Below are positions 1-61,618 of a stretch of 64,000 nt of DNA, one piece after another (position 1 is the stretch's first letter; every line of letters starts with the position of its first letter). The notes under the pieces are model-generated. The model did no database searches. It saw only the letters and a program-made list of their open reading frames with translations, and was not told the DNA's origin. This DNA is from Arenicola marina (lineage: Eukaryota; Annelida; Polychaeta; Arenicolidae). The stretch is taken from positions 25,104,254 through 25,168,253 of the forward strand of contig OZ025260.1 of NCBI GenBank assembly GCA_964019135.1, given 5' to 3'. A program made the translations under genes and the position numbers.

Positions 1-2888
1 GTCTTCAATGTGATCGCTGTCCGCCCCTCCCTGTCCTCAATCTGATCGTTGTCGGCCCCTCCATGTCCTCAATGTGATCGCTGTCCGTCCCACCCTGTCC
101 TCAATGTGATCGATGTCCACCCCTCCAGTCCTCAATGTGATCGCTGTCGGCCCCTCCATGTCCTCAATGTGATCGCTGTCCGCCCCTCCCTGTCCTCAAT
201 GGCTCGCTGTCCATCCCTCCCTGTCCTCAATGTGATCGCCGTCCGCCCCTCTCTGTCCTCAATGTGATCGCTGTCCACCCCTCCCTGTCCCCAATGTGAT
301 CGCTGTCCACCCCTCCCTGTCCTCAATGTGATCGCTGTCCACCCCTCCAGTCCTCAATGTGATCGCTGTCCACCCCTCCCTGTCCTCAATGTGATCGCTG
401 TCCGCCCCTCCCTGTCCTCAATGTGATCGCCGTCCGCCCCTCTCTGTCCTCAATGTGATCGCTGTCCACCCCTCCCTGTCCCCAATGTGATCGCTGTCCG
501 CCCCTCTCTGTACTCAATCTGATCGCTGTCCGCCCGTCCCTGTCCTCAATGTGATCGCTGTCCGCCCCTCCCTGTCCTCAATGTGATCGCTGTCCGCTCC
601 TCCCTGTTCTCAATTTGATCGCTGTCCGCCCCTCCCGGCCCTCAATGTGATCGCTGTCCGCCCCTCCCTGTCCTCAATATGATCGCTGTTCGCCCCTCCA
701 TGTCCTCAATGTGATCGCTGTCCACCCTTCCCTGTCCTCAATGTGATCGCTGTCCGCCCCTCCCTGTCCTCAATGTGATCGCTGTCCGCACATCTCTGTT
801 CTAACTGTGATCGCTGTCCGCCCCTCCCCGTCCTCAATGTGATCGCTGTCCACCCCTCCCTGTCCTCAATGTGATCGCTGTCCGCCCCTCCCCGTCCTCA
901 ATGTGATCGCTGTCCACCCCTCCCTGTCCTCAATGTGATCGCTGTCCGCTCCTCCCTGTTCTCAATGTGATCGCTGTCCGCCCCTCCCGGCCCTCAATGT
1001 GATCGCTGTCCGCCCCTCCCTGTCCTCAATGTGATCGCCGTCCGCCCCTCCATGTCCTCAATGTGATCGCTGTCCGCCCCTCCCTGTCCTCAATGTGATC
1101 GCTGTCCGCCCCTCCCTGTCCTCAATGTGATTGCTGTCCGCCCCTCCCCGTCCTCAATGTGATCGCTGTCCGCCCCTCCCTGTCCTCAATGTGATCGCTG
1201 TCCGCCCCTCCTTGTCCTCAATGTGATGGCTGTCCGCCCCTCCCTGTCCTCAATGTGATCGCTGTCCGCTCCTCCCTGTCCTCAATGTGATCGCTGTCCG
1301 CCCCCCCCGGTCCTCAATGTGATCGCTGTCCGCCCCTCCCTGTCCTCAATGTGATCGCTGTCCGTCCCTCCCTGTCCTCAAAGTGATCGCTGTCCGCCCC
1401 TCCCTGTCCTCAATGTGATCGTTGTCGGCCCCTCCCTGTCCTCAATGTGATCGCTGTCCATCCCTCCCTGGTGTCCTCAATGGGATCGCTGTCCGCCCCT
1501 CCCTGTCCTCAATGTGATCGCTGTCCGCCCCTCCCTGTCCTCAATGTGATCGCTGTCCGCCCCTCCCCGTCCTCAATGTGATCGCTGTCCGTCCCTCCCT
1601 GTCCTCAAAGTGATCGCTGTCCGCCCCTCCCTGTCCTCTATGTGATCGCTGCCGGCCCCTCCCTGTCCTCAATGTGATCGCTGTCCATCCCTCCCTGGTG
1701 TCCTCAATGGGATCGCTGTCCGCCCCTCCCTGTCCTCAATGTGATCGCTGTCCGCCCCTCCCTGTCCTCAATGTGATCGCTGTCCCCCCCTCTCTGTCCT
1801 CAATGTGATCGCTGTCCATCCCTCCCTGGTGTCCTCAATGTGACCGTTGTCCGCCCCTCTCTGTCCTCAATGTGATCGCTGTCCGCCCCTCTCTGTCCTC
1901 AATGTGATCGCTGTCCGCCCCTCCCCGTCCTCAATGTGATCGCTGTCCACCCCTCCCTGTCCTCAATGTGATCGTTGTCCACCCCTCCCTGTCCTCAATG
2001 CGATCGCTGTCGGCCCCTCCCTGTCCTCAATGTGATCGCTGTCGGCCCCTCCCTGTCCTCAATGTGATCGCTGTCCGTCCTACCCTGTCCTCAATGTAAT
2101 CGCTGTCCGCCCCTCCCTGTCCTCAATGTGATCGCTGTCCGCCCCTCCCTGTCCTCAATGTGATCGCTGTCCGCCCCTGCCTGTCCTCAATGCGATCGCT
2201 GTCCGTCCCTCTCTGTCCTCAATGTGATCGCTGTCCATCCCTCCCTGGTGTCCTCAATGTGACCGTTGTCCGCCCCTTCCTGTCTTCAATGCGATCGCTG
2301 TCCGCCGCTCCCTGTCCTCAATGCGATCGCTGTCCGACCCTCCCTGTCCTCAATGTGATCGTTGTCCGCCCCTCCCTGTCCTCAATGTGATCGCTGTCCG
2401 CCCCTCCCTGTCCTCAATGTGATCGCTGTCCGCACCTCTCTGTCCTCAGTGTGATGGCTGTCCGCCCCTCCCCGTCCTCAATGTGATCGCTGTCCGCCCC
2501 TCCCTGTCCTCAATGCGATCGCTGTCCGCCGCTCCCTGTCCTCAATGCGATCGCTGTCCGCCCCTCCCTGTCCTCAATGTGATCGTTGTCCGCCCCTCCC
2601 TGTCCTCAATGTGATCGCTGTCCGCCCCTCCTTGTCCTCAATGTGATCGCTGTCCGCACCTCTCTGTCCTCAATGTGATCGCTGTCCACCCCTCCCCGTC
2701 CTCAATGTGATCGCTGTCCACCCCTCCCTGTCCTCAATGTGATTGCCGTCCGCCCATCCCTGTCCTCAATGTGATCGCTGTCCGTCCCTCCCTGTCCTCA
2801 AAGTGATCGCTGTCCGCCCATCCCTGTCCTCAATGTGATCGCTGTCCGCCCATCCCTGTCCTCAGTGATCGCTGTCCGCCCCTGCCTG
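1..2888. repeat. Minisatellite array A, 32-bp unit, about 90 copies
   Basis: The unit reads as a spacer around the core TCAATGTGATCGCTGTCCGC and is repeated head to tail from the first base of the window, so the true left end lies outside. Most units are 32 bp. A 34-bp variant with an extra GGTG occurs near 1470, 1696, 1829 and 2247. Blocks of several units are themselves duplicated: a run near 1380-1500 recurs about 226 bp later, and a run near 234-300 recurs about 190 bp later. This indicates growth by multi-unit duplication. The array stops at a diverged unit near 2880. The short open frames inside are by-products of the repeat. Confidence 0.97.
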
Positions 2889-3559: not shown

Positions 3560-4239
3560 TCTGAGGGGGCTCTGAAGTAGATGAAATGGCGCTGAGCTAT
3601 ATTAAATGGCGATATATGACCTAGATGACGTCACGTGTACGGCTCATTAAGTACTGCTAACGGGTTCCGTGTGCGCGAAGGTGAGATTAAAAAGGCATCG
3701 GACTTTTGAGATAACGTAATCCTTTCTAACGAAGGTCCATAGTGTGTAAAGGATTTATAGGAAAACGCATAGTAATCGCATGTCTGGATCTTTCTTTATT
3801 GTTTAATTTAGGAAGCGTTATCGACATCGATTGGGACAATAAACAAGGTCAAGGACGTGGCTGGAATCACTGACGCCAAATACGGTTGTCATGGAGGACG
3901 TCAGGCGTTGTCATAGTAACACTGGGCTGGCGCAGTGAACGTCTGTCCTTTCTGGTCCACGTGTTAATTGTGCATGACGACGGGACGATGATGGTGATGA
4001 CGGTAAAGTCCTTCTCTGTCGCATACAACGAATTGGTCCTCAGGTGTATCACCATCAACCTCTCAGCCGCTACATCCACCTTTTGGACAACTGTACATAT
4101 AGCATATATTTATATTGGAAAAATCATCGAAATCAAGCCATGGTTCTTACAGTTGTGCATTCTAAAATTGGTTTCGTTGAAAATATATTCTATCAGAGCG
4201 GCATCGCCAAAGTTGTTCGTGGCAAACACATATCTTCGC

Positions 4240-11662: not shown

Positions 11663-14600
11663 ATAACCGCCCTGCGGAGTAAGGGACTGAAAGTGACCAC
11701 ACCACCCTGCGGAGCAAGGGGTGACAGTCAGTGAACACATCGCCCTGCGGAGCAATGGGGTGACAGTCAGTGAACACACCGCCCTGTGGAGCAAGGGGGT
11801 GACAGTCAGTGAACACATCGCCCTGCGGAGCAATGGGCTCACAGTCAGTGAACACACCACCCTGCGGAGCAAGGGGGTGACAGTCAGCAAACACACCGCC
11901 CGGCGGAGCAAGGGGGTGACAGTCAGTGAACACACCGCCCTGCGGAGCAAGGGGGTGACAGTCAGTGAACACACCGCCCTGCGGAGCAAGGGGGTGACAG
12001 TCTGTGAACACATCGCCCTGCGGAGCAATGGGCTCACAGTCAGTGAACACACCGCCCTGCGGAGCAAGGGGGTGACAGTCAGTGAACACACCGCCCTGCG
12101 GAGCAAGGGGGTGACAGTCAGTGAACACACCGCCCAGCGGAGCAAGGGGGTGACATTCAGTGAACACACCACCCTGCGGAGCAAGGGGGTGACAGTCAGT
12201 GAACACACCGCCCTGCGCAGCAAGGAGGTGACAGTCAGTGAACACACCGCCCTGCGGAGCAAAGGGGAGACAGTCAGTGAACACACCGTCCTGCGGAGCA
12301 AGGGGGTCACAGTCAGTGAACACACCGCCCTGCGGAGCAAGGGGGTGACAGTCAGTGAACACACCGCCCTGCGGAGCAAGGGGTGACAGTCAGTGAACAC
12401 ACCGCCCTGTGGAGCAAGGCGTGACAGTCAGTAAACACACCGCCCTGTGGAGCAAGGGGGTGACAGTCAGTGAACACACCGCCCTGCGGAACAAGGGGGT
12501 GACAGTCAGTGAACACACCGCCCTGCGGAGCAATGGGCTGACAGTCAGTGAACACACGGCCCTGCGGAGCAAGGGGTGACAGTCAGTGAACACACCGCCC
12601 TGCGGAGCAAGGGGGTGACAGTCAGTGAACACACCGCCCTGTGGAGCAAGGCGTGACAGTCAGTGAACACACCGCCCTGCGGAGCAAGGGGGTGACAGTC
12701 AGTGAACACACCGCCCTGCGGAACAAGGGGGTGACAGTCAGTGCACACACCGCCCTGCGGAGCAATGGGCTGACAGTCAGTGAACACACCGCCCTGCGGA
12801 GCAAGGGGGTGACAGTCAGTGAACACACCGCCCTGCGGAGCAAGGGGGAGACAGTCAGTGAACACACCGCCATGCGGAGCAAGGGGGTGACAGTCAGTGA
12901 ACACACCGCCCTGCGGAGCAAGGGGGTGACAATCAGTGAACACACCGCCCTGCAGAGCAATGGGCTCACAGTCAGTGAACACACCGCCCTGCAGAGCAAT
13001 GGGGTCACAGTCAGTGAACACACCGCCCTGCGGAGCAAGGGGGTGACAATCAGTGGACACACCGCCCTGTGGAGCAAGGCGTGACAGTCAGTGAACACAC
13101 CGCCCTGCAGAGCAATGGGGTCACAGTCAGTGAACACACCGCCCTGTGGAGCAAGGGGGTGACAGTCAGTGAACACACCGCCCTGCGGAGCAAGGGGGTG
13201 ACAGTCAGTGAACACACCGCCCTGCGGAGCAAGGGGTGACAGTCAGTGAACACACCGCCCTGTGGAGCAAGGGGGTGACAGTCAGTGAACACACCGCCCT
13301 GCGGAACAAGGGGGTGACAGTCAGTGAACACACCGCCCTGCGGAGCAAGGGGGAGACAGTCAGTGAACACACCGCCCTGCGGAGCAAGGGGGTGACAGTC
13401 AGTGAACACACCGCCCTGCGGAGCAAGGGGGTGACAGTCAGTGAACACACCGCCCTGCGGAGCAAGGGGGTGACAGTCAGTGAACACACCGCCCTGCGGA
13501 ACAAGGGGGTGACAGTCAGTGAGCACACCGCCCTGCGGAGCAAGGGGGTGACAGTCAGTGAACACACCGCCCTGCGGAGCAATGGGCTCACAGTCAGTGA
13601 ACACACCGCCCTGCGGAGCAAGGGGGTGACAGTCAGTGAACACACCGCCCTGCGGAGCAAGGTGTGACAGTCAGTGAACACACCGCCCTGCGGAGCAAGG
13701 GGGTGACAGTCAGTGAACACACCGCCCTGCGGAGCAAGGTGTGACAGTCAGTGAACACACCGCCCTGCGGAGCAAGGGGGTGACAGTCAGTGAACACACC
13801 GCCCTGCGGAGCAAGGTGTGACAGTCAGTGAACACACCGCCCTGTGGAGCAAGGGGGTGACAGTCAGTGAACACACCGCCCTGCGGAGCAAGGTGTGACA
13901 GTCAGTGAACACACCGCCCTGCGGAGCAAGGGGGTGACAGTCAGTGAACACACCGCCCTGCGGAGCAAGGGGGTGACAGTCAGTGAACACACCGCCCTGC
14001 GGAGCAAGGGGGTGACAGTCAGTGAACACACCGCCCTGCGGAGCAAGGGGGTGACAGTCAGTGAACACACCGCCCTGCGGAGCAAGGGGGTGACAGTCAG
14101 TGAACACACCGCCCTGCGGAGCAAGGCGTGACAGTCAGTGAACACACCGCCCTGCGGAGCAAGGGGGTGACAGTCAGTGAACACACCGCCCTGCGGAGCA
14201 AGGTGTGACAGTCAGTGAACACACCGCCCCGCGGAGCAAGGCGTGACAGTCAGTGAACACACCGCCCTGCGGAGCAAAGGGCTGACAGTGAGTGAACACA
14301 CCGCCCTGCAGAGCAATGGGCTCACAGTCAGTGAACACCCCGCCCTGCGAAGCAAGCGGATAACAGTGAACACACCGCCCTGCGGAGCAAGGGGTGACAG
14401 TCAGTGAACACACCGCCCTGCGGAGCAAGGGGTGACAGTCAGTGAACACACTGCCCAGCGGAGTAAGGAACTGACACTGAACACACAGTCCTGCGGAACA
14501 AGGGGGTGGCAGTCAGTGAACACACCGCCCTGCAGAGCAATGGACTCAGTCAGTGAACACCCCGCCCTGCGAAGCAAGCGGATAACAGTGAACACACTGC

Positions 14601-17600
14601 CCTGCGGAGCAAGAGGTGACAGTCAGTGAACACACCGCCCTGTGGAGCAAGGGGTTGACAGTCCGTGAACACACCGCCCTGCGGAGCAAGGGGGTGACAG
14701 TCAGTAAACACACCGCCCTGCGGAGCAATGGGTGACAGTCAGTGAACAAACCGCCCTGCGGAGCAAGGGGGTGACAGTCAGTGAAAACACCGCCCTGCGG
14801 AGCAAGGGGTGACAGTCAGTGAACACACCGCCCTGCGGAGTAAGGAACTGACACTGAACACACCGTCCTGCGGAACAAGGGGGTGGCAGTCAGTGAAAAC
14901 AGCGCCCTGCGGAGCAAGGGGATGACAATCAGTGGACACGCCGCCCTGTGGAGCAAGGGGGTGGCAGTCAGTGAACACACCGCCCTGCGGAGCAAGGGGA
15001 TGACAATCAGTGGACACGCCGCCCTGTGGAGCAAGGGGGTGGCAGTCAGTGAACACACTGCCCTGCGGAGCAGGGGGGTGACAGTCAGTGAACACACTGC
15101 CCTGCGGAGCAAGGGGTGACAGTCAGTGAACACACGGCCCTGCGGAGCAATGGGGTCACAGTCAGTGAACACACCGCCCTGCGGAACAAGGGGGTGACAG
15201 GCAGTGAACACACCGCCCTGCAGAGCAAGGAGGTGACAGTCAGTGAACAGACTGCCCTGCGTAGCAAGGGGGTGACAGGCAGTGAACACACCGCCCTGCG
15301 GAGCAAGGAGGTGACAGTCAGTGAACACACCGCCCTGCGGAGCAAGGGGATGACAATCAGTGGACACACCGCCCTGTGGAGCAAGGGGGTGGCAGTCAGT
15401 GAACACACCGCCCTGCGGAGCAAGGGGGTGACAGTCAGTGAACACACCGCCCTGCGGAGCAAGGGGGTGACAGTCAGTGAACACACCGCCCTGTGGAGCA
15501 AGGTGTGACAGTCAGTGAACACACCGCCCTGCGGAGCAAGGGGGTGACAGTCAGTGAACACACCGCCCTGTGGAGCAAGGCGTGACAGTCAGTGAACACA
15601 CCGCCCTGTGGAGCAAGGCGTGACAGTCAGTGAACACACCACCCTGTGGAGCAAGGCGTGACAGTCAGTGAACACACCGCCCTGCGGAGCAAGGGGGTGA
15701 CAGTCCGTGAACACACCGCCCTGTAGAGCAAGGGAGTGACAGTCAGTGAACACACCGCCCTGCGGAGCAAGGCGTGACAGTCAGTGAACACACCGCCCTG
15801 TGGAGCAAGGGGGTGACAGTCAGTGAACACACCGCCCTGCGGAGCAAGGCGTGACAGTCAGTGAACACACCGCCCTGCGGAGCAAGGGGGTGACAGTCAG
15901 TGAACACACCGCCCTGCGGAGCAAGGCGTGACAGTCAGTGAACACACCGCCCTGCGGAGCAAGGTGTGACAGTCAGTGAACACACCACCCCGCGGAGCAA
16001 GGCGTGACAGTCAGTGAACACACCGCCCTGCGGAGCAAAGGGCTGACAGTGAGTGAACACACCGCCCTGCAGAGCAATGGGCTCACAGTCAGTGAACACC
16101 CGCCCTGCGAAGCAAGCGGATAACAGTGAACACACCGCCCTGCGGAGCAAGGGGTGACAGTCAGTGAACACACCGCCCTGCGGAGCAAGGGGTGACAGTC
16201 AGTGAACACACTGCCCAGCGGAGTAAGGAACTGACACTGAACACACCGTCCTGCGGAACAAGGGGGTGGCAGTCAGTGAACACACCGCCCTGCAGAGCAA
16301 TGGACTCAGTCAGTGAACACCCCGCCCTGCGAAGCAAGCGGATAACAGTGAACACACTGCCCTGCGGAGCAAGAGGTGACAGTCAGTGAACACACCGCCC
16401 TGCGGAGCAAGGGGGTGACAGTCCGTGAAAACACCGCCCTGCGGAGCAATGGGGTGACAGTCAGTGAACACACCGCCCTGCGGAGTAAGGAACTGACACT
16501 GAACACACCGTCCTGCGGAACAAGGGGTTGACAGTCCGTGAACACACCGCCCTGCGGAGCAAGGGGGTGACAGTCAGTAAACACACCGCCCTGCGGAGCA
16601 ATGGGTGACAGTCAGTGAACACACCGCCCTGCGGAGCAAGGGGTGACAGTCAGTGAACACACCGCCCTGCGGAGCAAGGGGGTGACAGTCAGTGAAAACA
16701 CCGCCCTGCGGAGCAAGGGGTGACAGTCAGTGAACACACCGCCCTGCGGAGTAAGGAACTGACACTGAACACACCGTCCTGCGGAACAAGGGGGTGGCAG
16801 TCAGTGAAAACAGCGCCCTGCGGAGCAAGGGGATGACAATCAGTGGACACGCCGCCCTGTGGAGCAAGGGGGTGGCAGTCAGTGAACACACCGCCCTGCG
16901 GAGCAAGGGGATGACAATCAGTGGACACGCCGCCCTGTGGAGCAAGGGGGTGGCAGTCAGTGAACACACTGCCCCACGGAGCAGGGGGGTGACAGTCAGT
17001 GAACACACTGCCCTGCGGAGCAAGGGGTGACAGTCAGTGAACACACGGCCCTGCGGAGCAATGGGGTCACAGTCAGTGAACACACCGCCCTGCGGAACAA
17101 GGGGGTGACAGGCAGTGAACACACCGCCCTGCGGAGCAAGGAGGCGACAGTCAGTGAACACACCGCCCTGCGTAGCAAGGGGTTGACAGGCAGTGAACAC
17201 ACCGCCCTGCGGAGCAAGGAGGTGACAGTCAGTGAACACACCGCCTTGCGGAGCAAGGGGATGACAATCAGTGGACACACCGCCCTGTGGAGCAAGGGGG
17301 TGGCAGTCAGGGAACACACCGCCCTGCGGAGCAAGGGGGTGGCAGTCAGTGAACACACCGCCCTGCGGAGCAAGAGGTGGCAGTCAGTGAACACACCGCC
17401 CTGCGGAGCAAGGGGTTGACAGTCAGTGAACACACCGCCCTGCGGAGCAAGGGGTGACAGTCAGTGAACACACCGCCCTGCGGAGCAAGGGGGTGACAGT
17501 CAGTGAAAACACCGCCCTGCGGAGCAAGGGGTGACAGTCAGTGAACACACCACCCAGCGGAGTAAGGAACTGACACTGAACACACCGTCCTGCGGCACAA

Positions 17601-20600
17601 GGGGGTGGCAGTCAGTGAACACACCGCCCTGCGGAGCAAGGGGGTGACAGTCCGTGAACACACCGCCCTGCGGAGCAAGGGGGTGACAGTCAGTGAACAC
17701 ACCGCCCTGCGGAGCAAGGGGGTGACAGTCAGTGAACACACCACCCTGCAGAGCAATGGACTCAGTCAGTGAACACCCCGCCCTGCGGAGCAAGGGGGTG
17801 ACAGTGAGTGAACACACCGCCCTGCGGAGTAAGGAACTGACACTGAACACACCGTCCTGCGGAACAACGGGGTGGCAGTCAGTGAACACACCGCCCTGCG
17901 GAGCAAGGGGATGACAATCAGTGGACACACCGCCCTGTGGAGCAAGGGGGTGACAGTCCGTGAACACACCGCCCTGCGGAGCAAGGGGGTGACAGTCAGT
18001 AAACACACCGCCCTGCGGAGCAATGGGTGACAGTCAGTGAACACACCGCCCTGCGGAGCAAGGGGTGACAGTCAGTGAACACACCGCCCTGCGGAGCAAG
18101 GGGGTGACAGTCAGTGAAAACACCGCCCTGCGGAGCAAGGGGTGACAGTCAGTGAACACACCGCCCTGCGGAGTAAGGAACTGACACTGAACACACCGTC
18201 CTGCGGAGCAATGGGTGACAGTCAGTGAACACACCGCCCTGCGGAGCAAGGGGTGACAGTCAGTGAACACACCGCCCTGCGGAGCAAGGGGTGACAGTCA
18301 GTGAAAACACCGCCCTGCGGAGCAAGGGGTGACAGTCAGTGAACACACCGCCCTGCGGAGTAAGGAACTGACACTGAACACACCGTCCTGCGGAACAAGG
18401 GGGTGGCAGTCAGTGAACACACCGCCCTGCGGAGCAAGGGGATGACAATCAGTGGACACACCGCCCTGTGGAGCAAGGGGGTGGCAGTCAGTGAACACAC
18501 TGCCCTGCGGAGCAGGGGGGTGACAGTCAGTGAACACACTGCCCTGCGGAGCAAGGCGTGACAGTCAGTGAACACACGGCCCTGCGGAGCAAGGGGGTGA
18601 CAGTCAGTGAACACACCGCCCTGCGGAACAAGGGGGTGACAGGCAGTGAACACACCGCCTTGCGGAGCAAGGAGGTGACAGTCAGTGAACACACCGCCCT
18701 GCGTAGCAAGGGGGTGACAGGCAGTGAACACACCACCCTGCGGAGCAAGGAGGTGACAGTCAGTGAACACACCGCCCTGCGGAGCAAGGGGATGACAATC
18801 AGTGGACACACCGCCCTGTGGAGCAAGGGGGTGGCACTCAGTGAACACACCGCCCTGCGGAGCAAGGGGGTGGCAGTCAGTGAACACACCGCCCTGCGGA
18901 GCAAGAGGTGGCAGTCAGTGAACACACCGCCCTGCGGAGCAAGAGGTGGCAGTCAGTGAACACACCGCCCTGCGTAGCAAGGGGGTGACAGGCAGTGAAC
19001 ACACCGCCCTGCGGAGCAAGGAGGTGACAGTTAGTGAACACACCGCCCGCGGTGTAAGGAACTGACACTGAACACACCGCCCTGCGGAGCAGGGGGGTGA
19101 CAGTCAGTGAACACACTGCCCTGCGGAGCAAGGGGTGACAGTCAGTGACCACACCGCCCTGCGGAGCCAGAGGTGACAGTCAGTGAACACACCGCCCTGC
19201 GGAGCAAGGGGATGACAATCAGTGGACACACCGCCCTGTGGAGCAAGGGGGTGGCAGTCAGTGAACACACTGCCCTGCGGAGCAGGGGGGTGACAGTCAG
19301 TGAACACACTGCCCTGCGGAGCAAGGCGTGACAGTCAGTGAACACACGGCCCTGCGGAGCAAGGGGGTGACAGTCAGTGAACACACCGCCCTGCGGAACA
19401 AGGGGGTGACAGGCAGTGAACACACCGCCTTGCGGAGCAAGGAGGTGACAGTCAGTGAACACACCGCCCTGCGTAGCAAGGGGGTGACAGGCAGTGAACA
19501 CACCACCCTGCGGAGCAAGGAGGTGACAGTCAGTGAACACACCGCCCTGCGGAGCAAGGGGATGACAATCAGTGGACACACCGCCCTGTGGAGCAAGGGG
19601 GTGGCACTCAGTGAACACACCGCCCTGCGGAGCAAGGGGGTGGCAGTCAGTGAACACACCGCCCTGCGGAGCAAGAGGTGGCAGTCAGTGAACACACCGC
19701 CCTGCGGAGCAAGGGCTTGACAGTCAGTGAACACACCGCCCTGCGTAGCAAGGGGGTGACAGGCAGTGAACACACCGCCCTGCGGAGCAAGGAGGTGACA
19801 GTTAGTGAACACACCGCCCGCGGTGTAAGGAACTGACACTGAACACACCGCCCTGCGGAGCAGGGGGGTGACAGTCAGTGAACACACTGCCCTGCGGAGC
19901 AAGGGGTGACAGTCAGTGACCACACCGCCCTGCGGAGCCAGAGGTGACAGTCAGTGAACACACCGCCCTGCGGAGTAAGGGGAGACAGTCAGTGAACACA
20001 TTGCCCTGCGGAGCAAGGGGGTGACAGTCAGTGAACACACTGCCCTGCGGAGCAAGGGGGTGGCAGTCAGTGAACACACCGCCCTGCGGAGCAAGGGGGT
20101 GACAGTCAGTGAACACACCGCCCGGCGGAGCAAGGGGGTGACAGTCAGTGAACACACCGCCCTGCGGAGCAAGGGGGTGACAGTCAGTGAACACACCGCC
20201 CTGCGGAGCAAGGGGGTGACAGTCAGTGAACACACCGCCCTGCGGAGCAAGGGGGTGACAGTCAGTGAACACACCGCCCTGCGGAGCAAGGGGGTGACAG
20301 TCAGTGAACACGCCGCCCTGCGGAGCAAGGGGGTGACAGTCAGTGAACACACCGCCCTGCGGAGCAAAGGGATGACAATAAGTGGACACACCGCCCTGCG
20401 GAGCAAGGAGGTGACAGTCCGCGAACACACCGCCCTGCGGACCAATGGGCTCACAGTCAGTGAACACACCGCCCTGCGGAGCAAGGGGGTGACAGTCAGT
20501 GAACACACCGCCCTGCGGAGCAAGGGGGTGACAGTCAGTGACCACACCGCCCTGCGGAGCCAGAGGTGACAGTCAGTGAACACACCGCCCTGCGGAGCAA

Positions 20601-22670
20601 GGGGAGACAGTCAGTGAACACACCGCCCTGCGGAGCAAGGGGGTGACAGTCAGTGAACACACTGCCCTGCGGAGCAAGTGGGTAGCAGTCAGTGAACACA
20701 CCGCCCTGCGGAGCAAGGGGGTGACAGTCAGTGAACACACCGCCCGGCGGAGCAAGGGGGTGACAGTCAGTGAACACACCGCCCTGCAGAGCAAGGGGGT
20801 GACAGTCAGTGAACACACCGCCCTGCGGAGCAAGGGGGTGACAGTCAGTGAACACACCGCCCTGCGGAGCAAGGGGGTGACAGTCAGTGAACACGCCGCC
20901 CTGCGGAGCAAGGGGGTGACAGTCAGTGAACACACCGCCCTGCGGAGCAAGGAGGTGACAGTTAGTGAACACACCGCCCTGCGGAGCAAGGGCGTGACAG
21001 TCAGTGAACACATCGCCCTGCGGAGTAAGGAACTGACACTGAACACACCGCCCTACGGAGCAGGGGGGTGACAGTCAGTGAACACACCGCCCTGCGGAGC
21101 AAGGTGTGACAGTCAGTGAACACACGGCCCTGCGGAGCAAGAGGGTGACAGTCAGTGAACACACGGCCCTGCGGAACAAGGGGGTGACAGTCAGTGAACA
21201 CACCGCCCTGCGGAGCAAGGGGGTGACAGTCCGTGAACACACCGCCCTGCGGAGCACGGGGGTGACAGTCAGTGGACACACCGCCCTGCGGAGCAAGGGG
21301 GTGACAGTTAGTGAACATACCGCCCTGCGGAGCAAGGGGGTGACAGTCAGTGAACACACCGCCCTGCGGAGGAAGGGGTGACAGTCAGTGAACACACCGC
21401 CCTGCGGAGTAAGGAACTGACACTGAACACACCGCCCTGCGGAACAAAGGGGTAGCAGTCAGTGAACACACCGCCCTGCGGAGTAAGGGGGTGACAGTCC
21501 GTGAACACACCACCCTGCGGAGCAAGGAGGTGACAGTCCGTGAACACACCGCCCTGCGGAGCAATGGGGTCACAGTCAGTGAACACACCACCCTGCGGAG
21601 CAAGGCGTGACAGTCAGTGAACACACCGCCCTGTGGAGCAAGGGGGTGACAGTCAGTGAACACACCGCCCTGCGGAGCAAGGGGGTGACAGTCAGTGAAC
21701 ACACCACCCTGCGGAGCAAGGGGGTGACAGTCTGTGAACACACCACCCTGCGGAGCAAGGCGTGACAGTCAGTGCACACACTGCCCTGCGGAGCAAGGCG
21801 TGACAGTCTGTGAACGCACCACCCTGCGGAGCAAGGCGTGACAGTCAGTGAACACACCGCCCTGCGGAGCAAGGGGATGACAATAAGTGGACACACCGCC
21901 CTGTGCAGCAAGAGGATGACAATCAGTGAACACACCGCCCTGCGGAGCAAGGGGGTGACAGTCAGTGAACACACCGCCCTGCGGAGCAAGGGGGTGACAG
22001 TCAGTGAACACACCGCCCTGCGGAGCAAGGGGGTGACAATCAGTGAACACACCGCCCTGCGGAGCCAGAGGTGACAGTCGGTGAACACACCGCCCTGCGG
22101 AGCAAGGGGAGACAGTCAGTGAACACACCGCCCTGCGGAGCAAGGGGGTGACAGTCCGTGAACACACCGCCTGGGCGGAGCAAGGGGGTGACAGTTAGTG
22201 AACACACCGCCCTGCGGAGCAAGGGCGTGACAGTCAGTGAACACATCGCCCTGCGGAGTAAGGAACTCACACTGAACACACCGCCCTGCGGAGCAAGGGG
22301 GTGACAGTTAGTGAACACACTGCCCTGCGGAGCAAGGGGTGACAGTCAGTGAACACACGGCCCTGCGTAGCAAGGGGGTGACAGTCAGTGAACACACCGC
22401 CCTGCGGAGCAAGGGGGTGACAGTCAGTGAACACACCGCCCAGCGGAGCAAGGGGGTGACAGTCAGTGAACACACCGCCCTGCGGAGCAAGGGGGTGACA
22501 GTCAGTGAACACACCGCCCTGCGGAGCAAGGGGTGACAGTCAGTGAACACACCGCCCTGCGGAGCAAGGGGGTGACAGTCAGTGAACACACCGCCCTGCG
22601 GAGCAAGGGGGTGACAGTCAGTGGACACACCGCCCTGCGGAGCAAGGGGGTGACAGTCCGTGAACACACC
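11663..22670. repeat. Large minisatellite array C, 39/38-bp unit, about 280 copies
   Basis: Each unit contains GTGACAGTCAGTGAACACAC followed by CGCCCTGCGGAGCAAGG. Loss of one G from the G run makes a 38-bp unit and shifts the frame. The 39-bp unit is stop-free in one plus frame (VTVSEHTALRSKG) and two minus frames (VFTDCHPLAPQGG and LLRRAVCSLTVTP), which produces many long but artefactual open frames. The unit holds two small palindromes, TGACAGTCA and CCGC-CCT-GCGG. Multi-unit blocks are duplicated: about 14400-14640 with 16150-16390, 14883-15500 with 16794-17420, and 18390-19150 with 19160-19920. A shorter variant with GTAAGGAACTGACACTGAAC marks the block repeats. Confidence 0.98.
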
Positions 22671-23558
22671 CTGGCTTTCTTAGCCCCAAACTAATAACTT
22701 ATATATCACTCACTCGGTGGAGCCACTGCTCACCCGGAGTTCTGAGAATGGGGCTTGCGGAATTGGATGTGAGCAACAGACCGACAGATGAGCAAACGAC
22801 CGGCTATACTAGCAAGCGACCGGCTGTACTAGCAAGCGACCGGTTATAATAGCAAGCGACCGGCTATAATAGCAAGCGACCGGCTATAATAGCAAGTGAC
22901 CCGACTATTTAAACCAGAAGTACAGCGCGTAGTAAGTGGCGGAAGTTTCATTTGAATGTTAAGTTTACGTTACCGTAACAAACGATCACACTATCTGGCA
23001 ATACGTGTATCATCCCTGCTTGTAAATAAGACAATACTGTTACACTACCGTAGAGACATTTATAACATTTAAGGTTTGCGTGGAATCAGTCAGTCCAATT
23101 CTATGGGGCCTCCATCTGGGGTTCTCGATTAGTGAAGTGCTGCCACCTAGTGAGGTATCTTGGTGACAGAAATACACCGCGTTCACAGCCACATCGACAA
23201 AATCACCAGCAGGCAAGTACAGAAGAGATAATTTTGGGCATACTATTGTGCTTCCTCGTCACATATAGGCTACCAAATCACTTACACGCGATGCCAGCAT
23301 TCATGAACAATTTACTACTTTTGTAAGCATTGTTGTAAGCACATAACAAAGTAGGCCTACTCCGTGCTCAAAAATAAGGATGCTGACTATATTGTTTTTT
23401 TTTTATAACCAAAAGTAAGTGGGAATACCCTAAAATGACCAGCAATAGGCCGCCATGTAAAAATGTATAAGCAGGGTGGGCGGCTTCCACGTCACTTTTT
23501 AGAAAAAGGAGCCTGAAGATACCTGTTTTTTAATCAGGCGAACTACGTCAGTTAGTGT
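22671..23558. other. Unique DNA between arrays C and D, apart from the 20-bp array
   Basis: It holds the short array at 22772-22912 and otherwise no recognised feature. The 64-codon open frame at 23132-23326 shows no family signal. A T tract lies near 23395. Confidence 0.5.
22772..22912. repeat. 20-bp tandem repeat, about 7 copies
   Basis: Unit AGCAAGCGACCGGCTATAAT in head-to-tail copies. The first two copies are diverged and the middle ones nearly identical. Confidence 0.9.
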
Positions 23559-25811
23559 CAAAGAGCCTCCAGGTGACGTCACAGGGGATGAACATCCAGA
23601 CACAAAGAGCCTCCAGGTGACGTCACAGGGGATGGCCATCCAGACACAAAGAGCGTCCAGGTGACGTCACAGGGAATGACCATCCAGGCACAAAGAGCCT
23701 CCAGGTGACGTCACAGGGGATGACCATCCAGACACAAAGAGCCTCCAGGTGACGTCACAGGGGATGGCCATCCAGACACAAAGAGCATCCAGGTGACGTC
23801 GCAGGGAATGACCATCCAGGCACAAAGAGCCTCCAGGTGACGTCACAGGGGATGACCATCCAGACACAAAGAGCCTCCAGGTGACGTCACAGGGGATGAC
23901 CATCCAGACACAAAGAGCCTCCAGGTGACGTCACAGGGGATGACCATCCAAACACAAAGAGCCTCCAAGTCACGTCACAGGGGATGACCATCCAGACACA
24001 AAGAGCCTCCAGGTGACGTCACAGGGGATGACCATCCAGACACAAAGAGCCTCCAGGTGACGTCACAGGGGATGGCCATCCAGACACAAAGAGCATCCAG
24101 GTGACGTCACAGGGAATGACCATCCAGACACAAAGAGCCTCCAGGTGACGTGACAGGGGATGACCATCCAAACACAAAGAGCCTCCAGGTGACGTCACAG
24201 GGGATGACCATCCAGACACAAAGAGCCTCCAGGTGACGTCACAGGGGATGACCATCCAGACACAAAGAGCCTCCAGGTGACGTCACATGGGATGACCATC
24301 CAGACACAAAGAGCCTCCAGGTGACGTCACAGGGGATGACCATCCAAACACAAAGAGCCTCCAAGTGACGTCACAGGGGATGACCATCCAGACACAAAGA
24401 GCCTCCAGGTGACGTCACAGGGGATGACCATCCAGACACAAAGAGCCTCCAAGTGACGTCACAGGGGATGACCATCCAGACACAAAGAGCTTCCAGGTGA
24501 CGTCACAGGGGATGACCATCCAGACACAAAGAGCCTCCAGGTGACGTCACAGGGGATGGCCATCCAGACACAAAGAGCCTCCAGTTGACGTCACATGGGA
24601 CGACCATCCAGACACAAAGAGCCTCCAGGTGACGTCACAGGGGATGACCATCCAGACACAAAGAGCCTCCAGGTGACGTCACAGGGGATGACCATCCAGA
24701 CACAAAGAGCCTCCAAGTGACGTCACAGGGGATGACCATCCAGACACAATAAGCCTCCAGGTGACGTCACAGGCGATGACCATCCAGACACAAAGAGCCT
24801 CCAGGTGACGTCACAGGGGATGACCATCCAGACACAAAGAGCCTTCAGGTGACGTCACAGAGGATGACCATCCAGACACAAAGAGCCTCCAGGTGACGTC
24901 ACATGGGATGACCATCCAGACACAAAGAGCCTCCAGGTGACGTGACAGGGGATGACCATCCAAACACAAAGAGCCTCCAGGTGACGTCACAGGGGATGAC
25001 CATCCAGACACAAAGAGCCTCTAGGTGACGTCACAGGGGATGACCATCCAGACACAAAGAGCCTCCAGGTGACGTCACAGGGGATGACCATCCAGACACA
25101 AAGAGCCTCCAAGTGACGTCACAGGGGATGACCATCCAAACACAAAGAGCCTCCAGGTGACGTCACAGGGGATGACCATCCAGACACAAAGAGCCTCCAG
25201 GTGACGTCACAGGGGATGACCATCCAGACACAAAGAGCCTCCAGGTGACGTCACAGGGGATGACCATCCAGACACAAAGAGCCTCCAGGTGACGTCACAG
25301 GGGATGACCATCCAGACACAAAGAGCCTCCAAGTGACGTCACAGGGGATGACCATCCAGACACAAAGAGCCTCCAAGTGACGTCACAGGGGATGACCATC
25401 CAGACACAAAGAGCCTCCAGGTGACGTCACAGGGGATGACCATCCAGACACAAAGAGCCTCTAGGTGATGTCACAGGGGATGACCATCCAAACACAAAGA
25501 GCCTCCAGGTGACGTCATAGGGGATGACCATCCAGACACAAAGAGCCTCCAGGTGACGTCACAGGGGAAGACCAGCCAAACACAAAGAGCCTCCAGGTGA
25601 CGTCACAGGGGATGACCATCCAGACAGCTACAGCCTCCAGGTGACGTCACAGGGGATGACCATCCAGACAGCTACAGCCTCCAGGTGACGTCACAGGGGA
25701 TGATCATCCAGACAGCTACAGCCTCCAGGTGACGTCACAGGGGATGACCATCCAGACAGCTACAGCCTCCAGGTGACGTCACAGGGGATGACCATCCAGA
25801 CAGCTACAGCC
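23559..25811. repeat. Minisatellite array D, 44-bp unit, about 51 copies, each with a CRE palindrome
   Basis: Each unit runs AAAGAGCCTCCAGG, then TGACGTCAC, then AGGGGATGACCATCCAGACA. The 10-bp palindrome GTGACGTCAC contains the full consensus cAMP response element TGACGTCA and is intact in most units. A few units have single changes (TGACGTGA, TCACGTCA, TGATGTCA, TGACGTCG). The last five units at the right edge replace ACAAAGAGCC by GCTACAGCC while keeping the 44-bp length and the palindrome. CRE content is seen directly; binding by CREB/ATF proteins is inference. Confidence 0.97.
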
Positions 25812-25924
25812 GTCATTGCCATTCTTCTCTTTTCCAAAACTCATTGGCAGGATAATCTGGGTCCCATAGAGACTTTACTTCATCTAAGCATTTGATTTGG
25901 AAACTTAACTGTGTTCATGGCTGA

Positions 25925-26175
25925 TGTAGATTAATGGCCCTGATGTATATAAAATGGCTCTGATGTAGATGAAATGGCGGTGATGTACATTAAATGGCTC
26001 TGATGTAGATGAAATGGCTTTGATGTAGATTATATGGCTCAGATGTAGATTATATGGCTCTGGTGTAGATTAAATGACTGTAATGTAGATTATATGCTCT
26101 GATGTAGATTGAACGGTTCAGTTGTAGATTACATATCTCTGATATAGATTAAATAGTTCTGAGATGAGATGAAGC
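25925..26175. repeat. 20-bp tandem repeat in P2, about 12 copies
   Basis: Unit GGCTCTGATGTAGATTAAAT with variation at several positions. P1 has only about two recognisable units at 3575-3615, so this array grew in P2 only. Confidence 0.9.
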
Positions 26176-28938: not shown

Positions 28939-29403
28939 ATTTTGGGGACAAACAAACACACGTGCTCCATGTTGAACTATAGGCAGCTATAGGTCAATTT
29001 CTGTCCAGGTTTATTCTAAAGACTATGAGTACCATTTCACTAAACATGGCTATGGGAGATAGACGTTAAAATATTTGGAGGCGATGGAGCGCAGAACTTT
29101 GGGAATATACAAGGAAAAATCCGTCTTCACAACACTCGAAAGCTAAAAATAGGGTTGTAACTTTAGTTCTCCAAACTGCGAGTGACGTCACAGAGTTTCA
29201 CGTGCCTCCGCGGTAACAAAAATGGCGAGAGCAAGTGATCGACTTAACCATTCCGCGGTCAAAATGAATGAAAAATATATCGTCTATCAGTTTTGGGCAG
29301 CCATATTTTTTAAATATTCTTAATTATATCGCCAGGCCTTCCGCTATGCGCAGAGATTCTAAGCTCGTTCCGAACACGTGCTTCGTTTGTTTGTCCCCAA
29401 AAT
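28939..29403. repeat. Inverted repeat pair of about 30 bp, 465 bp apart
   Basis: ATTTTGGGGACAAACAAAC followed by a CACGTG-containing end (28939-28968) is repeated in reverse complement at 29372-29403. It could mark the ends of a small transposon or be part of a hairpin. No clear target duplication was found. Confidence 0.6.
29181..29323 (+). promoter_or_regulatory. Promoter-like cluster with short ORF
   Basis: A CRE (TGACGTCA, 29183-29190), an E-box (CACGTG, 29199-29204) and CCGCGG precede AAAAATGGCGAGAGC, which has the YY1-like ATGGCG context often found at animal translation starts. The ATG at 29222 opens a 33-codon frame ending at 29323. It has no recognisable homology and could be a first exon, a transposon promoter or chance. 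Confidence 0.2.
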
Positions 29404-45605: not shown

Positions 45606-46308
45606 TTTTGAAGAAGCAATGTGGATAGTAGTTAGCCAGAAGCCAGAAGCCGAAGTTGGAAGAGGAGATACCGGCTTTGAAGAAGCAACGTTTTTTCCAA
45701 CGTTTAATAATGGAACTATTTGCTATAGGTAGATTATGAAACAAAAACATATGGCGATTTTGACAAGATTCGACGCTGTTCGTCGGTTTCCCTCGTTTTA
45801 TCCCTCATAGGACCTAGCCAGGTTATATTTGCTGACGTCACGACAATGTAGGACTTTCTCCCGATCTCATAGTTCTGCTGTTTTAAGAAACTAGAGACTG
45901 AGAGAGAGCGGATTCTTAACTGGTGCGCAAACCCTCAGTCCCAATACCGGACTCGAGATATGCAGTCGCAGTAGTTTTCGCCGACGTACCACTCTCTGGC
46001 GCTCGGTTTTTCTTGTTCTGGGCAAGCTGTTACGGCTTCAGTGTTAGGTGTCGGGCTAACGCCTGTAGTTTTAGAAGTAGGAACCACTTTATAGGTGCCT
46101 GGTAACACCGCTTTGGTACTCTCATCGACAAAACGACAATCAGAGTAAGGCCGATCCATCTGGCGCTATCGTCAATGGTTTTGTGAAGTGGTCACACGAT
46201 CTCATTCTTTGTGTTGGGTATATACGCGATATAGGCAACCGCTCAGCTCCTTCTTTTCTATGTTTTTTTACGGTAATTTGTCTCGTTGTTCGACTGGAAT
46301 CGAGACAT
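45606..46308. other. Unique DNA
   Basis: A short direct repeat (GGCTTTTGAAGAAGCAA / GGCTTTGAAGAAGCAA) occurs at 45603 and 45673. No gene recognised. Confidence 0.5.
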
Positions 46309-48870: not shown

Positions 48871-49084
48871 AACTTTCCATTGCAGCGTTTGAAGAGGGGT
48901 AGTGACGATGACGTCATAAACGCTTAGGACGTGGTTGAGGGATGGGACTGCAGGCTGGATAACCCACCTACACTCTTATTATCCTTACTAAAAGGAGGAA
49001 TCTCAGTAGTTCTGCAGTTGGCTTTGCACTGTATATCTACGAAACGAAATGTGGACGTTTTAGACCTCTTGGGTGCAATTGAAG
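48871..49084. other. Unique DNA
   Basis: No recognised feature. Confidence 0.5.
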
Positions 49085-49180: not shown

Positions 49181-50770
49181 TCCTACATCCTCGGCATCGG
49201 AATCTGTTGAGTAACACAGGGTAATCCTAATCCTGGTTCACTCTATATGTAGACACAGGTGACCTAAGACGCAAATTGGTTAACGAATTCACTTCGTACA
49301 GAAAAAAACCTGAATTAGTATTCATGAAACAGAAGAATCGATAAGGCTGGGAAGATCCTGGCTGAATATATAATGTGTCGTAATGTTGGGGGGGGGTGGG
49401 TGTATACGAATTCGGTTTGTTTAGGTAACATGCTGCAGTCTGTAACATCATGTGGTCTATAAGTCTGCTGCGAGCAAGTGAAGGAATCAAGGTATGTATG
49501 GATGGTCTTATTGAAGAAAGACACGGCGTCTATTTACACTGGCGGATCCAGCGGAGAGCGCACGGTGCCCCCCCACCCCCCCCCCCCCCCGCCCCTGAGC
49601 ATGTGTCCCGTCGGTTCGTTGTAGTGCCAATTGTATCAACAATTAGGTCCGAAGCGATTCTGGTATCAGAGTTTTGGTATAGCTGAGGTGCCCAAGCGGA
49701 CGTGGGTCCGCACCAGCCGAACACAGCCTGAAGGTAAGATAAAGAGAAGGAAATGTAATCTATACATTTAGAGCAGCACAGATTTTTAAGATAGGCAATA
49801 CTATATTTTACATGTTATTCATTTCCGTCATAAGGGAATATTCTAAGTCAGGCGAATCGAGCTATTCCCATAAAACTATATAAATTACCTGTCATATGGT
49901 ACCTGCTATATTACCTGACACAGTGTTGCTACCGTGCAGGGTGAGTGACCAATTGTTGGCTGGATTTGGGGGGTGGGTCAGGGGTAGGTCTGCTCGTGTC
50001 CCCCATCTCGGTTTTCCGCCTTTGGGTTTAACAGAGTATTAAAACGTCACGTCGTGGGTGGTAACTACACGAAAGGGCGAGCTGAGGCAGTTGGGGGGGG
50101 GGGGTGCAAGAGATGGGGGCAGGGGAGGGGAGGGGCTAGGGTGTGTAGGTGAAGTACTTTTTCAGGTATACCAGACGTGCCTCACCACCATCTGGAGTGT
50201 TAAGGAGCTGTTTCATTAGTTGCTGTAAGGTCGAAACCGGATCAATTATCCTGGCCGAGAATGTCAGGATGGCGACCTCTGGTGTACAGAGAGTGCGACG
50301 GAGACTGCTCGTCGTAACCACCCTCGCACCCAATACGTACCGCCGCCATCTTTGTTTATGCCGGCCTACATCACGTGACGACTGACGGCGTCATTAACTG
50401 GACAATAAAAGACTACAGGGAGTGTATGTTTTTATATTCCCACTCGATCGCCATATTACGCATCCCACACGGACTGCGCATAAAGTTCTGCACGGACAGA
50501 ATCTCGCCTGCTGGGCCATTCTCTATTTTCGTCTTCTCTCGCTAGGTGGCTGCGCTATTAAAACTAGAGCCGACGGCGTGAGCGATAATGAAGCTTGCGG
50601 AGCGCCACACTGTGGTGGAGATTGGTCCAGAGCGTGGATCGGATTACCGCAACGGTTCAGCAGTTTAAACTACGCTCTGACCTCTGGGCCCCGTGACAGC
50701 AACACACAGCCGCGGTCCCTTCCATAGAATCTGGCATCTGGGTTATTGCGGGTATTGTTTCACCCTGTTC
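49181..50770. other. Unique DNA with a possible promoter at its right
   Basis: G or C tracts occur near 49387, 49570-49592 and 50095. GCACCAGCC-type and TGGCGGATCCAG motifs (49541) recall transposon ends. No gene recognised apart from the promoter-like segment described separately. Confidence 0.4.
50140..50400 (-). promoter_or_regulatory. Promoter-like segment with YY1-type start context and short ORFs
   Basis: On the minus strand TCACGTGATG (E-box) is followed by AAAGATGGCGGCGGTACG, a typical YY1/translation-start context. The ATG opens 36 codons to a stop. Another frame runs open for about 65 codons to 50136, ending in a stretch with LQQLMKQLL and LVYLKKYF, but lacks an ATG. It could be the 5' end of an intron-containing gene. 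No homology recognised. Confidence 0.2.
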
Positions 50771-53700
50771 ACAGGTCTCTCATCTTATCTCCCACCCCAT
50801 CTTCACAAGTATCTTATCTTATCTCCCACCCCATCTTCACAAGTGTCTTATCTTATCTCCCACCCCAGCTTCGCAAGTCTCTCATCTTATCTCCCACCCC
50901 AGCTTCACAAGTGTCTTATCCCATCTTCACAAGTGTCTTATCTTATCTCCCACCCCAGCTTTACAAGTGTCTTATCTTATCTCCCACCCCAGCTTCACAA
51001 GTGTCTTATCTTATCTCCCACCCCAGCTTTACAAGTGTCTTATCTTATCTCCCACCCCAGCTTCACAAGTGTCTTATCTTATCTCCCACCCCAGCTTCAC
51101 AAGTGTCTTATCTTATCTCCCACCCCAGCTTCACAAGTGTCTTATCTTATCTCCCACCCCTGCTTCACAGGTGTCTTATCTTATCTCCCACCCCAGCTTC
51201 ACAAGTGTCTTATCTTATCTCCCACCCCAGCTTCACAAGTGTCTTATCTTATCTCCCACCCCAGCTTCACAAGTGTCTTATCTTATCTCCCACACCAGCT
51301 TCACAAATGTCTTATCTTATCTCCCACCCCAGCTTCACAAGTGTCTTATCTTATCTCCCACCCCAGCTTCACAAGTGTCTTATCTTATCTCTCACCCCAG
51401 CTTCACAAGTGTCTTATCTTATCTCCCACCCCAGCTTCAGAAGTATCTTATCTTGTCTCCCACCCCAGCGTTACAAGTGTCTTATCTTATCTCCCACCCC
51501 AGCTTCACAGGTGTCTTATCTTATCTCCCACCCCAGCTTCACAAGTGTCTTATCTTATCTCCCACCCCAGCTTCACAAGTGTCTTATCTTATCTCCCACC
51601 CCAGCTTCACAAGTGTCTTATCTTATCTCCCACACCAGCTTTACAAGTGTCTTATCTCCCACCCCAGCTTCACAAGTGTCTTATCTTATCTCCCACCCCA
51701 GCTTCACAAGTGTCTTATCTTATCTCCCACGCCAGCTTTACAAGTGTCTTATCTTATCTCCCACCCCAGCTTCACAAGTGTCTTATCTTATCTCCCACCC
51801 CATCTTCACAAGTGTCTTATCTTATCTCCCACCCCAGCTTCACAAGTCTCTCATCTTATCAACCACCCCAGCTTCACAAGTGTCTTACCTTATCTCCCAC
51901 CCCAGCTTCACAAGTGTCTTATCTTATCAACCACCCCAGCTTCACAAGTGTCTTATCTTATCTCCCACCCCAGCTTCACAAGTCTCATATTATCTCCCAC
52001 CCCAGCTTCACAAGTGTCTTATCCTATCTCCCACCCCAGCTTCACAAGTCTCTCATCTTATCAACCACCCCAGCTTCACAAGTGTCTTATCTTATCTCCC
52101 ACCCCAGTTTCACAAGTGTCTTATCTTATCTCCCACCCCAGCTTCACAAGTGTCTTATCTTATATCTCCCACCCCAGCTTCACAAGTGTCTTATCTTATC
52201 TCCCACCCCAGCTTTACAAGTGTCTTATCTTATCTCCCACCCCAGCTTCACAAGTGTCTTATCTTATCTCCCACCCCAGCTTCACAAGTGTCTTATCTTA
52301 TCTCCCACCCCAGCTTCACAAGTGTCTTATCTTATCTCCCACACCAGCTTCACAAGTGTCTTATCTCATCTCCCACCCCAGCTTCAAGAGTGTCTTATCT
52401 TATCTCCCACCCCAGCTTCACGAGTGTCTTATCTTATCTCCCACCCCAGCTTCACAAGTGTCTTATCTTATCTCCCACACCAGCTTCACAAGTGTCTTAT
52501 CTTATCTCCCACACCAGCTTCACAAGTGTCTTATCTTATCTCCCACCCCAGTTTCACAAGTGTCTTATCTTATCTCCCACCCCAGTTTCACATATGTCTT
52601 ATCTTATCTCCCACCCCAGCTTCACAAGTGTCTTATCTTATCTCCCACACCAGCTTCACAAGTGTCTTATCTTATCTCCCACCCCAGCTTCAAGAGTGTC
52701 TTATCTTATCTCCCACCCCAGCTTCACGAGTGTCTTATCTTATCTCCCACACCAGCTTCACAAGTGTCTTATCTTATCTCCCACCCCAGTTTCACAAATG
52801 TCTTATCTTATCTCCCACCCCAGCTTCACAAGTGTCTTATCTTATCTCCCACCCCAGCTTCACAAGTGTCTTATCTTATCTCCCACACCAGCTTCACAAG
52901 TGTCTTATCTTATCTCCCACCCCAGCTTCAAGAGTGTCTTATCTTATCTCCCACCCCAGCTTCACGAGTGTCTTATCTTATCTCCCACCCCAGCTTCACA
53001 AGCGTCTTATCTTATTTCCCACCCCTGCTTCACAGGTGTTTTATTTTATCTCCCACCCCAGCTTTACAAGTCTCTCATCTTATCTCCCACCCCATCTTCC
53101 CAAGTCTCTCATCTTATCTCCCACCCCAGCTTCACAAGTGTCCTATCTTATCTTTCACCCCAGCTTCACGAGTGTCTTATCTTATCTCCCACCCCAGCTT
53201 CACGAGTGTCTTAACTTATCTCCCACCCCAGCTTCACAAGTGTCTTATCCTATCTCCCACCCCAGCTTCACAAGTCTCTCATCTTATCTCCCACCCCAGC
53301 TTCACAAGTGTCCTATCTTATCTTTCACCCCAGCTTCACGAGTGTCTTATCTTATCTCCCACCCCAGCTTCACGAGTGTCTTATCTTATCTCCCACCCCA
53401 GCTTCACAAGTGTCTTATCTTATCTCCCACCCAGCTTCACAAGTATCTTATCTTATCTCCCACCCCATCTTCACAAGTGTCTTATCTTATCTCCCACCCC
53501 ATCTTCACAAGTCTCTCATCTTATCAACCACCCCAGCTTTACAAGTGTCTTATCTTATCTCCCACCCCAGCTTCACAAGTGTCTTATCTTATCTCCCACC
53601 CAGCTTCACAAGTATCTTATCTTATCTCCCACCCAGCTTCACAAGTATCTTATCTTATCTCCCACCCCATCTTCACAAGTGTCTTATCTTATCTCCCACC

Positions 53701-60200: not shown

Positions 60201-61618
60201 ACGGTGGATTCTCCGGCTCGGGTGTCGTGATTCGGCCGTTCATCTTGATCAAGTCGATCCCACACAAAAAACAGAGAGAAGAAAACAGAAACACTTTTGA
60301 CATAACTTTTGCCTGTCTTCCTGGTTGGTAATAATATCCCCGTGTTAGTGGCCCTCCCACCAGGTCCATTATCCCCGGGTTTGCTTGCGGCTGATTGATT
60401 TGCTTACTGAGTGCTTGTGATAAAAGATAAGGCGAGAGTTTTGTTTTCTCTGGAATTATCGGCTGTGAATACGGGCCGGCATCCCATGCTCACCCCATCG
60501 TAGTTTTGTAGGATCGTAGTTTTGTGCCATTCCCACAACGTTAACGACGTATGAACGTTAGATATTTAAACCGCTGGCATTAGATGTGCGGAATAGGTTC
60601 GGTGCGAGGTTAAAAACAAGCAGTCACGCTCACTGGCCATTTGTGTGAGCAATAACTTCCCAGCAACGGGAATGTAGATTAGATTAGATTTTATTATTTA
60701 TGGTTCTTCTTCTGAGCTGGCGGATGAGCAACTCTCGGGGCTAAATTGTTTCAATCAGCCAAATTAACAGCTCACTGTTGTCTTTATACATTAATGGGAT
60801 AAGCTAATGGATTAATCTAACAATGGATACATAGACCCATCCGGCAGACAACATATCAGTGAAACAGCCCTTTCCCGCTACCAGCCCTACCAGCCCTACC
60901 AGCCCTTCCAGCCCTAGTTCGCCTCCACCAGACCCAGCCGTCCTCCCCCTTTCTCCTCATCCCCCCCCACCCTCCTCGTCCAGCTCCCCCTCCCGCTCCC
61001 TCGGCCCCTGTCACCCCGACCAATGTAATAACCCCTGATCGATATGTGGGGGTGCGGGGGTCAGGTTGCCGAGGGTGACATTCCCTGCCTGTTCCATAGG
61101 ATACGTGAGTTCGGTTTTCTCTGGACTGTAAATACCGGCCGGAAACCCATGCGTAGCAATAGAATTCGGACAAACTACGCAGCATCGTATTCCAACGTTT
61201 TTGCAAGTGTACTGCAAGTGTGGACAAGTGCGCGAATTGACTTTCGTTTTCTTTCCGGCGATTGTTCCGATCATAATATAACCACTGGGGTGAACATAGT
61301 GAAAGTAACACCGTCCTTGTGAAAATATCTTCTACAGTAATGCAACCTGTTTTTATTGAGTCAGGATCGATTGAAAGAGTGATTGTATTCTCGCGTCTGA
61401 TCATTTTTTAGTACTCCCCTCGGCCATATTGATATTGTTATAAAAGTTACTAAGATTAACTTCAAGTGCAGAGAGCTCCAACTTTGAAGAAATGATCGCT
61501 TGTGCCGAGGGAGAACCCAGCTTGGTGCGGAGCGGAGGAATCCGTATAACAAAAAAGGGGAAACCTCAACTCGTGACGTCAATGCAGGTAACTTTAGAGC
61601 TGTTCGTGATTATATTGA

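Follow-up and report, generated by a model that had tools for sequence, protein, structure and literature searches.

A 51-copy minisatellite carrying a consensus CRE palindrome in Arenicola marina reflects a genome-wide excess of the palindrome

A tandem array of 51 units of 44 bp, most of which contain an unbroken cAMP response element (CRE) palindrome, is present in a stretch of 64,000 nucleotides of the Arenicola marina genome (contig OZ025260.1; the whole stretch is referred to as the window). The array mirrors an excess of the same palindrome across the genome, and this excess is more interesting than the array itself. The array is probably a largely passive, non-coding minisatellite which captured a palindrome that was already abundant.

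The array and its surroundings

TRF placed the array at positions 23559-25802 with a period of 44, 51.0 copies, 95% matches and 0% indels. Unit-by-unit alignment showed that the 51 whole units (consensus CAAAGAGCCTCCAGGTGACGTCACAGGGGATGACCATCCAGACA), which are arranged head-to-tail, are followed by a 9-bp stub (25803-25811) still matching the edge-type unit, and that the sequence after it is unrelated, so that the whole feature extends over 23559..25811. The earlier note, which described about 50 tandem CRE palindromes with a 44-bp period in this region, was confirmed in this respect. Its statement that the palindrome is intact in most units was also correct: the canonical octamer TGACGTCA is unbroken in 46 of the 51 units and the 10-mer GTGACGTCAC in 44, both according to the unit-by-unit alignment. 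The first GTGACGTCAC lies at 23573..23582 (with TGACGTCA at 23574) and the octamer position recurs every 44 bp up to 25774. The octamer is preceded by G in 50 of the 51 units and followed by C in the same proportion (50/51). Chance is far too weak to yield such a regular 51-copy array. The palindrome inside the unit is, however, not very surprising because it is about 12-fold over-represented genome-wide.

In the units at the right edge (25627..25811), the letters CAA.G of unit positions 1-3 and 5 are exchanged for GCT.C, as shown by alignment. Five such changed units had been reported; the change is real, and the palindrome and the unit length are indeed retained in the whole units, but the variants comprise four whole units (starting at 25627, 25671, 25715 and 25759) and the stub, and the number five applies only to the linkers between the palindromes. 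Altogether, 22 unit types occur within the array. Identical neighbouring units are not commoner than in shuffled arrangements (8 vs 6.9; p=0.36), and the mean number of differences between units is 1.98 at lag 1 and 2.5 at lag 25, a slow climb as the units lie farther apart. The 22 unit types and this slow rise fit local duplication. One local 44-bp segment holding the CRE palindrome may have served as the seed, and ordinary unequal exchange or slippage would then have enlarged the array.

With its unit within the range of roughly 10-100 bp and its many copies in the one assembly examined, the array belongs to the minisatellites (VNTRs). It shares with them the head-to-tail units, the mosaic of variants, the distinct edge units and the absence of a long ORF (no ORF of at least 110 aa overlaps the array). 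It differs from them in having a full CRE palindrome at the centre of its unit.

The array could also have arisen as a tandem region inside a dispersed transposable element and have spread together with it. A dispersed repeat of about 245 bp does lie to the left of the array on the forward strand (22924..23169), with copies 77-81% identical at 39 other places among the best 40 of 809 candidates, and the palindrome is also present in other repeat families. This repeat nevertheless ends about 390 bp before the array, and its 39 matches (from the best 40 of 809 candidates) stop by approximately position 23177. Moreover, the array unit was not found at a second locus when two consensus units were compared with the whole genome and the best candidates were scored; all 25 of the 25 matches fell inside the array. 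An origin within a transposable element is therefore highly improbable. Among the same best 40 of 809 candidates, the rest of the left flank gave no further repeat match, which is a weak negative result, and weaker repeats may lie nearer to the array. The right flank was compared with the window and the sampled stretches only. The repeat at 22924-23169 is SINE-like in size, had 809 first-look candidates genome-wide and matched no Rfam family.

A 20-bp array (CTGATGTAGATTAAATGGCT) is located just to the right of the CRE array, at 25921-26162, and relatives of it are found at about 3568-3610, adjoining a single CRE at 3626. Outside the array, the window contains five copies of TGACGTCA, four of them single sites at 3626..3633, 45833..45840, 48909..48916 and 61574..61581, and the fifth at 29183 within a dispersed repeat described below. 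The search of the window with Rfam gave zero matches, and zero tRNAs were detected. Dense minisatellites occupy the window positions 1-2888, 11666-22670, 50768-57045, 58292-59254 and 62655-63553. In the window and 18 sampled stretches taken together (244 kb), 101 distinct arrays with a period of at least 12 occupy 109.5 kb.

Excess of the palindrome in the genome

In the 867,369,267 bases scanned, TGACGTCA is present in 166,947 copies (12.6 times the uniform expectation), and its reversal ACTGCAGT in 14,904. For the palindrome TCACGTGA, whose letters and ACGT core are those of TGACGTCA, the count is 31,167, with two arrays containing most of the 100 listed places. Amplification of TCACGTGA in arrays, often with a spacing of about 56-58 bp, was noted at C1:689520-691580 and C1:1452911-1457181 and shows that arrays capture other palindromes too. 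With the human genome size of 3.1 Gb, the density of TGACGTCA is approximately 57 times that in human. The copy numbers given in the part of the source consulted are 10,389 for human and 14,297 for mouse (PMC3464117). In the literature judged by titles and the beginnings of abstracts, we found no published report of a genome-wide TGACGTCA excess or of CRE minisatellites.

The excess is also evident outside tandem arrays. In the non-tandem sequence of the 18 sampled stretches and the window (about 132-133 kb), 21 TGACGTCA sites were found, compared with 2.0-3.6 expected from Markov models of order 1 to 3, and among the 8-mers seen at least 8 times in this sample TGACGTCA was the most over-represented after poly-C. 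The half-site TGACG occurs in the same sample 302 times on both strands, 42 of these within full palindromes, and shows little excess alone. Decaying repeat copies should leave a surplus of one-mismatch relatives of TGACGTCA; these numbered 66 (46.8-62.7 expected), in comparison with the 21 intact sites (2.0-3.2 expected). These counts hint that the sites are either young or kept, two states which are inseparable at a divergence of about 10%.

CREB/ATF dimers prefer the sequence RTGACGTCAY, with a purine before and a pyrimidine after the octamer. The same preference is apparent in the genome-wide counts of 27,308 for GTGACGTCAC and 21,666 for ATGACGTCAT, in contrast to 1,197 for TTGACGTCAA, the last value being near that of its own reversed control (797). 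At the 21 non-tandem sites of the sample, the flank on the 5' side is a purine in 35 of 42 cases (binomial p=1.5e-5), although these sites are partly non-independent, four of them being located in two BTB-BACK open frames and two of these four at matching places of paralogous genes. Many of the listed ATGACGTCAT sites belong to one repeat family, and a part of the genome-wide flank contrast stems from repeat families with fixed flanks. The dependence on the flanking base goes beyond simple base composition. Judged by its letters, the motif of the array is the full consensus CRE, and the label CRE stands because of this full consensus and of the purine and pyrimidine flanks found genome-wide, as in the CREB/ATF preference. 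Among the sequences examined, Pfam recognized BTB-BACK genes as well as a reverse transcriptase with zf-RVT. MHC class I and II families gave no match in this genome, a weak negative result since the 14 control genomes likewise had none.

Repeats and arrays that carry the palindrome

Pairs of GTGACGTCAC sites 20-50 bp apart number 3,366 genome-wide, compared with 292 for the reversed control and about 27 expected by chance. In the listed pairs from 24 Mb of C1, we counted by eye at least 20 separate places, 11 of which have at least two pairs, with unrelated spacers. Related to the number of sites, however, the pairs amount to 3,366 per 27,308 for GTGACGTCAC (12%) and to 292 per 1,775 for the reversed control (16%). 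The latter fraction is based on 292 pairs, to which a few arrays could have contributed the most. Arrays thus seem to sample the motif and not to favour it, since the number of pairs per site does not exceed that of the control. Among the 101 distinct sampled arrays, two contain TGACGTCA (one of them being the array in the window), compared with 0.6 expected from the dispersed density. Both the number of arrays and the number of pairs per site roughly fit passive capture.

The same numbers bear on a meiotic hotspot directed by ATF/CREB, in which a bound site would draw breaks and their repair would expand arrays. There is a precedent in fission yeast, where, in the parts of the two reports at hand, the heptamer ATGACGT creates the M26 meiotic hotspot (PMC9775316) and Atf1 binds CRE-like sites of the M26 kind (PMC2677671). 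The array resembles M26 in having a CRE-like site of the kind recognized by bZIP proteins, and several unrelated arrays in the genome carry the palindrome. Compared by sequence alone, the array nevertheless has the form GTGACGT and not ATGACGT, the base before TGACG being G in 50 units and T in one, and ATGACGT itself occurs in only one of the 51 units (on the reverse strand of the unit at 25495). Together with a fraction of paired sites that does not exceed that of the control palindrome, this makes a hotspot very unlikely.

Some of the sites are carried by dispersed repeats. A repeat about 1.5 kb long recurs on C1 (e.g. C1:360641-362177). It contains six or seven TGACGTCA sites, some of which form abutting pairs, and TGACGTCA sites 0-3 bp apart number 3,940 genome-wide, compared with 30 for the control. 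This family would account for about 8% of all sites with two pairs per copy or 17% with one pair per copy, figures that form an upper range because they assume seven sites per copy and the origin of all 0-3 bp pairs from this family, and some of the listed pairs clearly have another origin.

The copy of another dispersed repeat on the forward strand of the window (29051..29266; 79% identical to L002 in an alignment of 239 columns) contains GTGACGTCAC (with TGACGTCA at 29183), followed by CACGTG and then by AAAAATGGCG. This layout is similar to that of a compact promoter. Genome-wide, TGACGTCA is followed by AAATGGCG after 10-40 bp in 880 + 924 cases, compared with 1 + 2. Of the 58 rows shown for this arrangement, 40 belong to the family at 29183 when counted by eye, and three other groups with a similar layout make up 5, 3 and 3 rows, the last group being confined to 26 kb. 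In some of the dispersed families, AAAATGGCG lies at a fixed distance downstream of the CRE; it resembles a YY1 site, so these repeats could be element promoters. Fewer than half of the sites belong to the recognized repeat families. The 16 sites found in 180 kb of the 18 sampled stretches outside the array in L031 (see below) correspond, as a rough estimate, to about 77,000 sites genome-wide.

Variation within the CRE

A functional CREB/ATF sink or an enhancer cluster, in which about 46 intact sites would titrate or concentrate bZIP factors and would be kept for that, was among the possibilities raised for the array, together with the expectation of less variation at the CRE positions than in the other parts of the unit. 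Both the 46 intact sites among 51 and the counts per cell agree with such a function. In the window array, deviations occur in 5 of the 408 octamer cells (1.2%) compared with 60 of 1836 (3.3%) elsewhere (Fisher p=0.022, uncorrected), in a count in which the cells are non-independent, as the units were copied from each other, and to which the four edge units add 16 linked changes. The 8-bp window of the octamer has the joint lowest sum of deviations among the 44 windows. In contrast, constraint is not clear when each distinct variant is counted once (4 over the eight CRE positions vs 26 over the 36 others; p=0.59) or when the four edge units are omitted from the per-cell count (5/376 vs 43/1692; p=0.19). 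Polymorphic positions make up 4 of 8 in the CRE and 21 of 36 in the rest of the unit.

An independent array was available for comparison, since one of the sampled stretches (L031, 10 kb) consists entirely of a 36-bp CRE array of 278.9 copies, the unit of which contains TGACGTCA and is unrelated to the window unit. In 274 units of L031, distinct variants are fewer in the CRE (7 of 24 possible) than elsewhere (46 of 84; p=0.037), singleton variants number 0 in the CRE and 13 elsewhere, and the half-site GTCA shows zero variation. When the deviations are summed, however, the CRE window of this array takes only rank 19 of 36. The deviation rate of the CRE exceeds the median of the other positions and is lower than their mean, which is high because three very variable positions raise it. 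When the distinct variants of both arrays were pooled, the CRE had 11 of 48 and the other positions 72 of 192 (p=0.063). In the 10-unit array of L020, the CRE rate was not lower, an array of this size being too small to inform. Altogether, the answers are mixed, with a weak lean towards the CRE being somewhat constrained in arrays: the CRE positions are less variable in the per-cell count and the L031 variants, but not clearly so in the distinct variants of the window array, the edge-free count and the L031 rank.

The flanks RTGACGTCAY, which look like protein recognition genome-wide, also speak for a functional role. As a sink, however, the 46 sites of the array represent 0.03% of the 166,947 octamers in the genome, a negligible share, and no gene was recognized nearby, 13 distinct ORFs of the window that were compared with Pfam having given zero matches. 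The proportion speaks against the proposed sink, and a function as a sink or enhancer cluster is on the whole unlikely. A switch sensitive to CpG methylation had also been considered, and nothing points to one. The substitution C>T at the single CpG of the unit is found in one of the 51 units, and the observed/expected ratio of CpG in the non-tandem sample is 0.87; there is thus no sign of strong methylation decay.

Discussion

The reading which best fits the mixed signs of constraint and the abundance of the motif in the genome is that of a passive array, the last of the four options in the earlier note. RTGACGTCAY appears to be scattered so densely by dispersed repeats and other sources that minisatellites would often capture one copy. 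Each intact site of the array could in principle bind a dimer of the CREB/ATF-type bZIP proteins, and the array as such would have no function. The lower per-cell deviation of the CRE, the variants in L031 and the palindrome retained in the four edge units count against a passive origin, which we still regard as the probable one overall.

There is a conceivable but rather doubtful alternative, according to which RTGACGTCAY itself spreads or is kept. Unrelated repeat families and minisatellites would have acquired the palindrome, its copies would tend to stay intact, and the array would be one local product of this process, with a bZIP factor driving the transcription of mobile elements or marking sites of recombination or repair. 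If this is true, the genome would be saturated with ATF/CREB sites, at the density of about 57 times the human one.

Transposable elements can spread transcription-factor sites. The dispersed families described here similarly copy the CRE, some of them together with AAAATGGCG at a fixed distance downstream, but the families recognized so far explain a minority of the sites. The array shares with known cAMP response elements the exact TGACGTCA in most of its units, and the genome shares with them the purine-pyrimidine flanks. The location is different: in the part of the report consulted, vertebrate CREs cluster just upstream of transcription starts, a bias which sea squirt, fly and worm lack (PMC1796609), whereas many of the sites described here are located in arrays and dispersed repeats.

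The genome-wide excess is also a caution that tandem consensus CREs are weak evidence of regulation in this genome. The array alone matters little; what matters is that one palindrome recognized by transcription factors is in sharp, measurable surplus throughout the genome of an animal. If the excess is shared by the lineage, it would make it possible to test the spread of CREB/ATF sites by mobile elements, their upkeep by the host, or the guidance of recombination by them.
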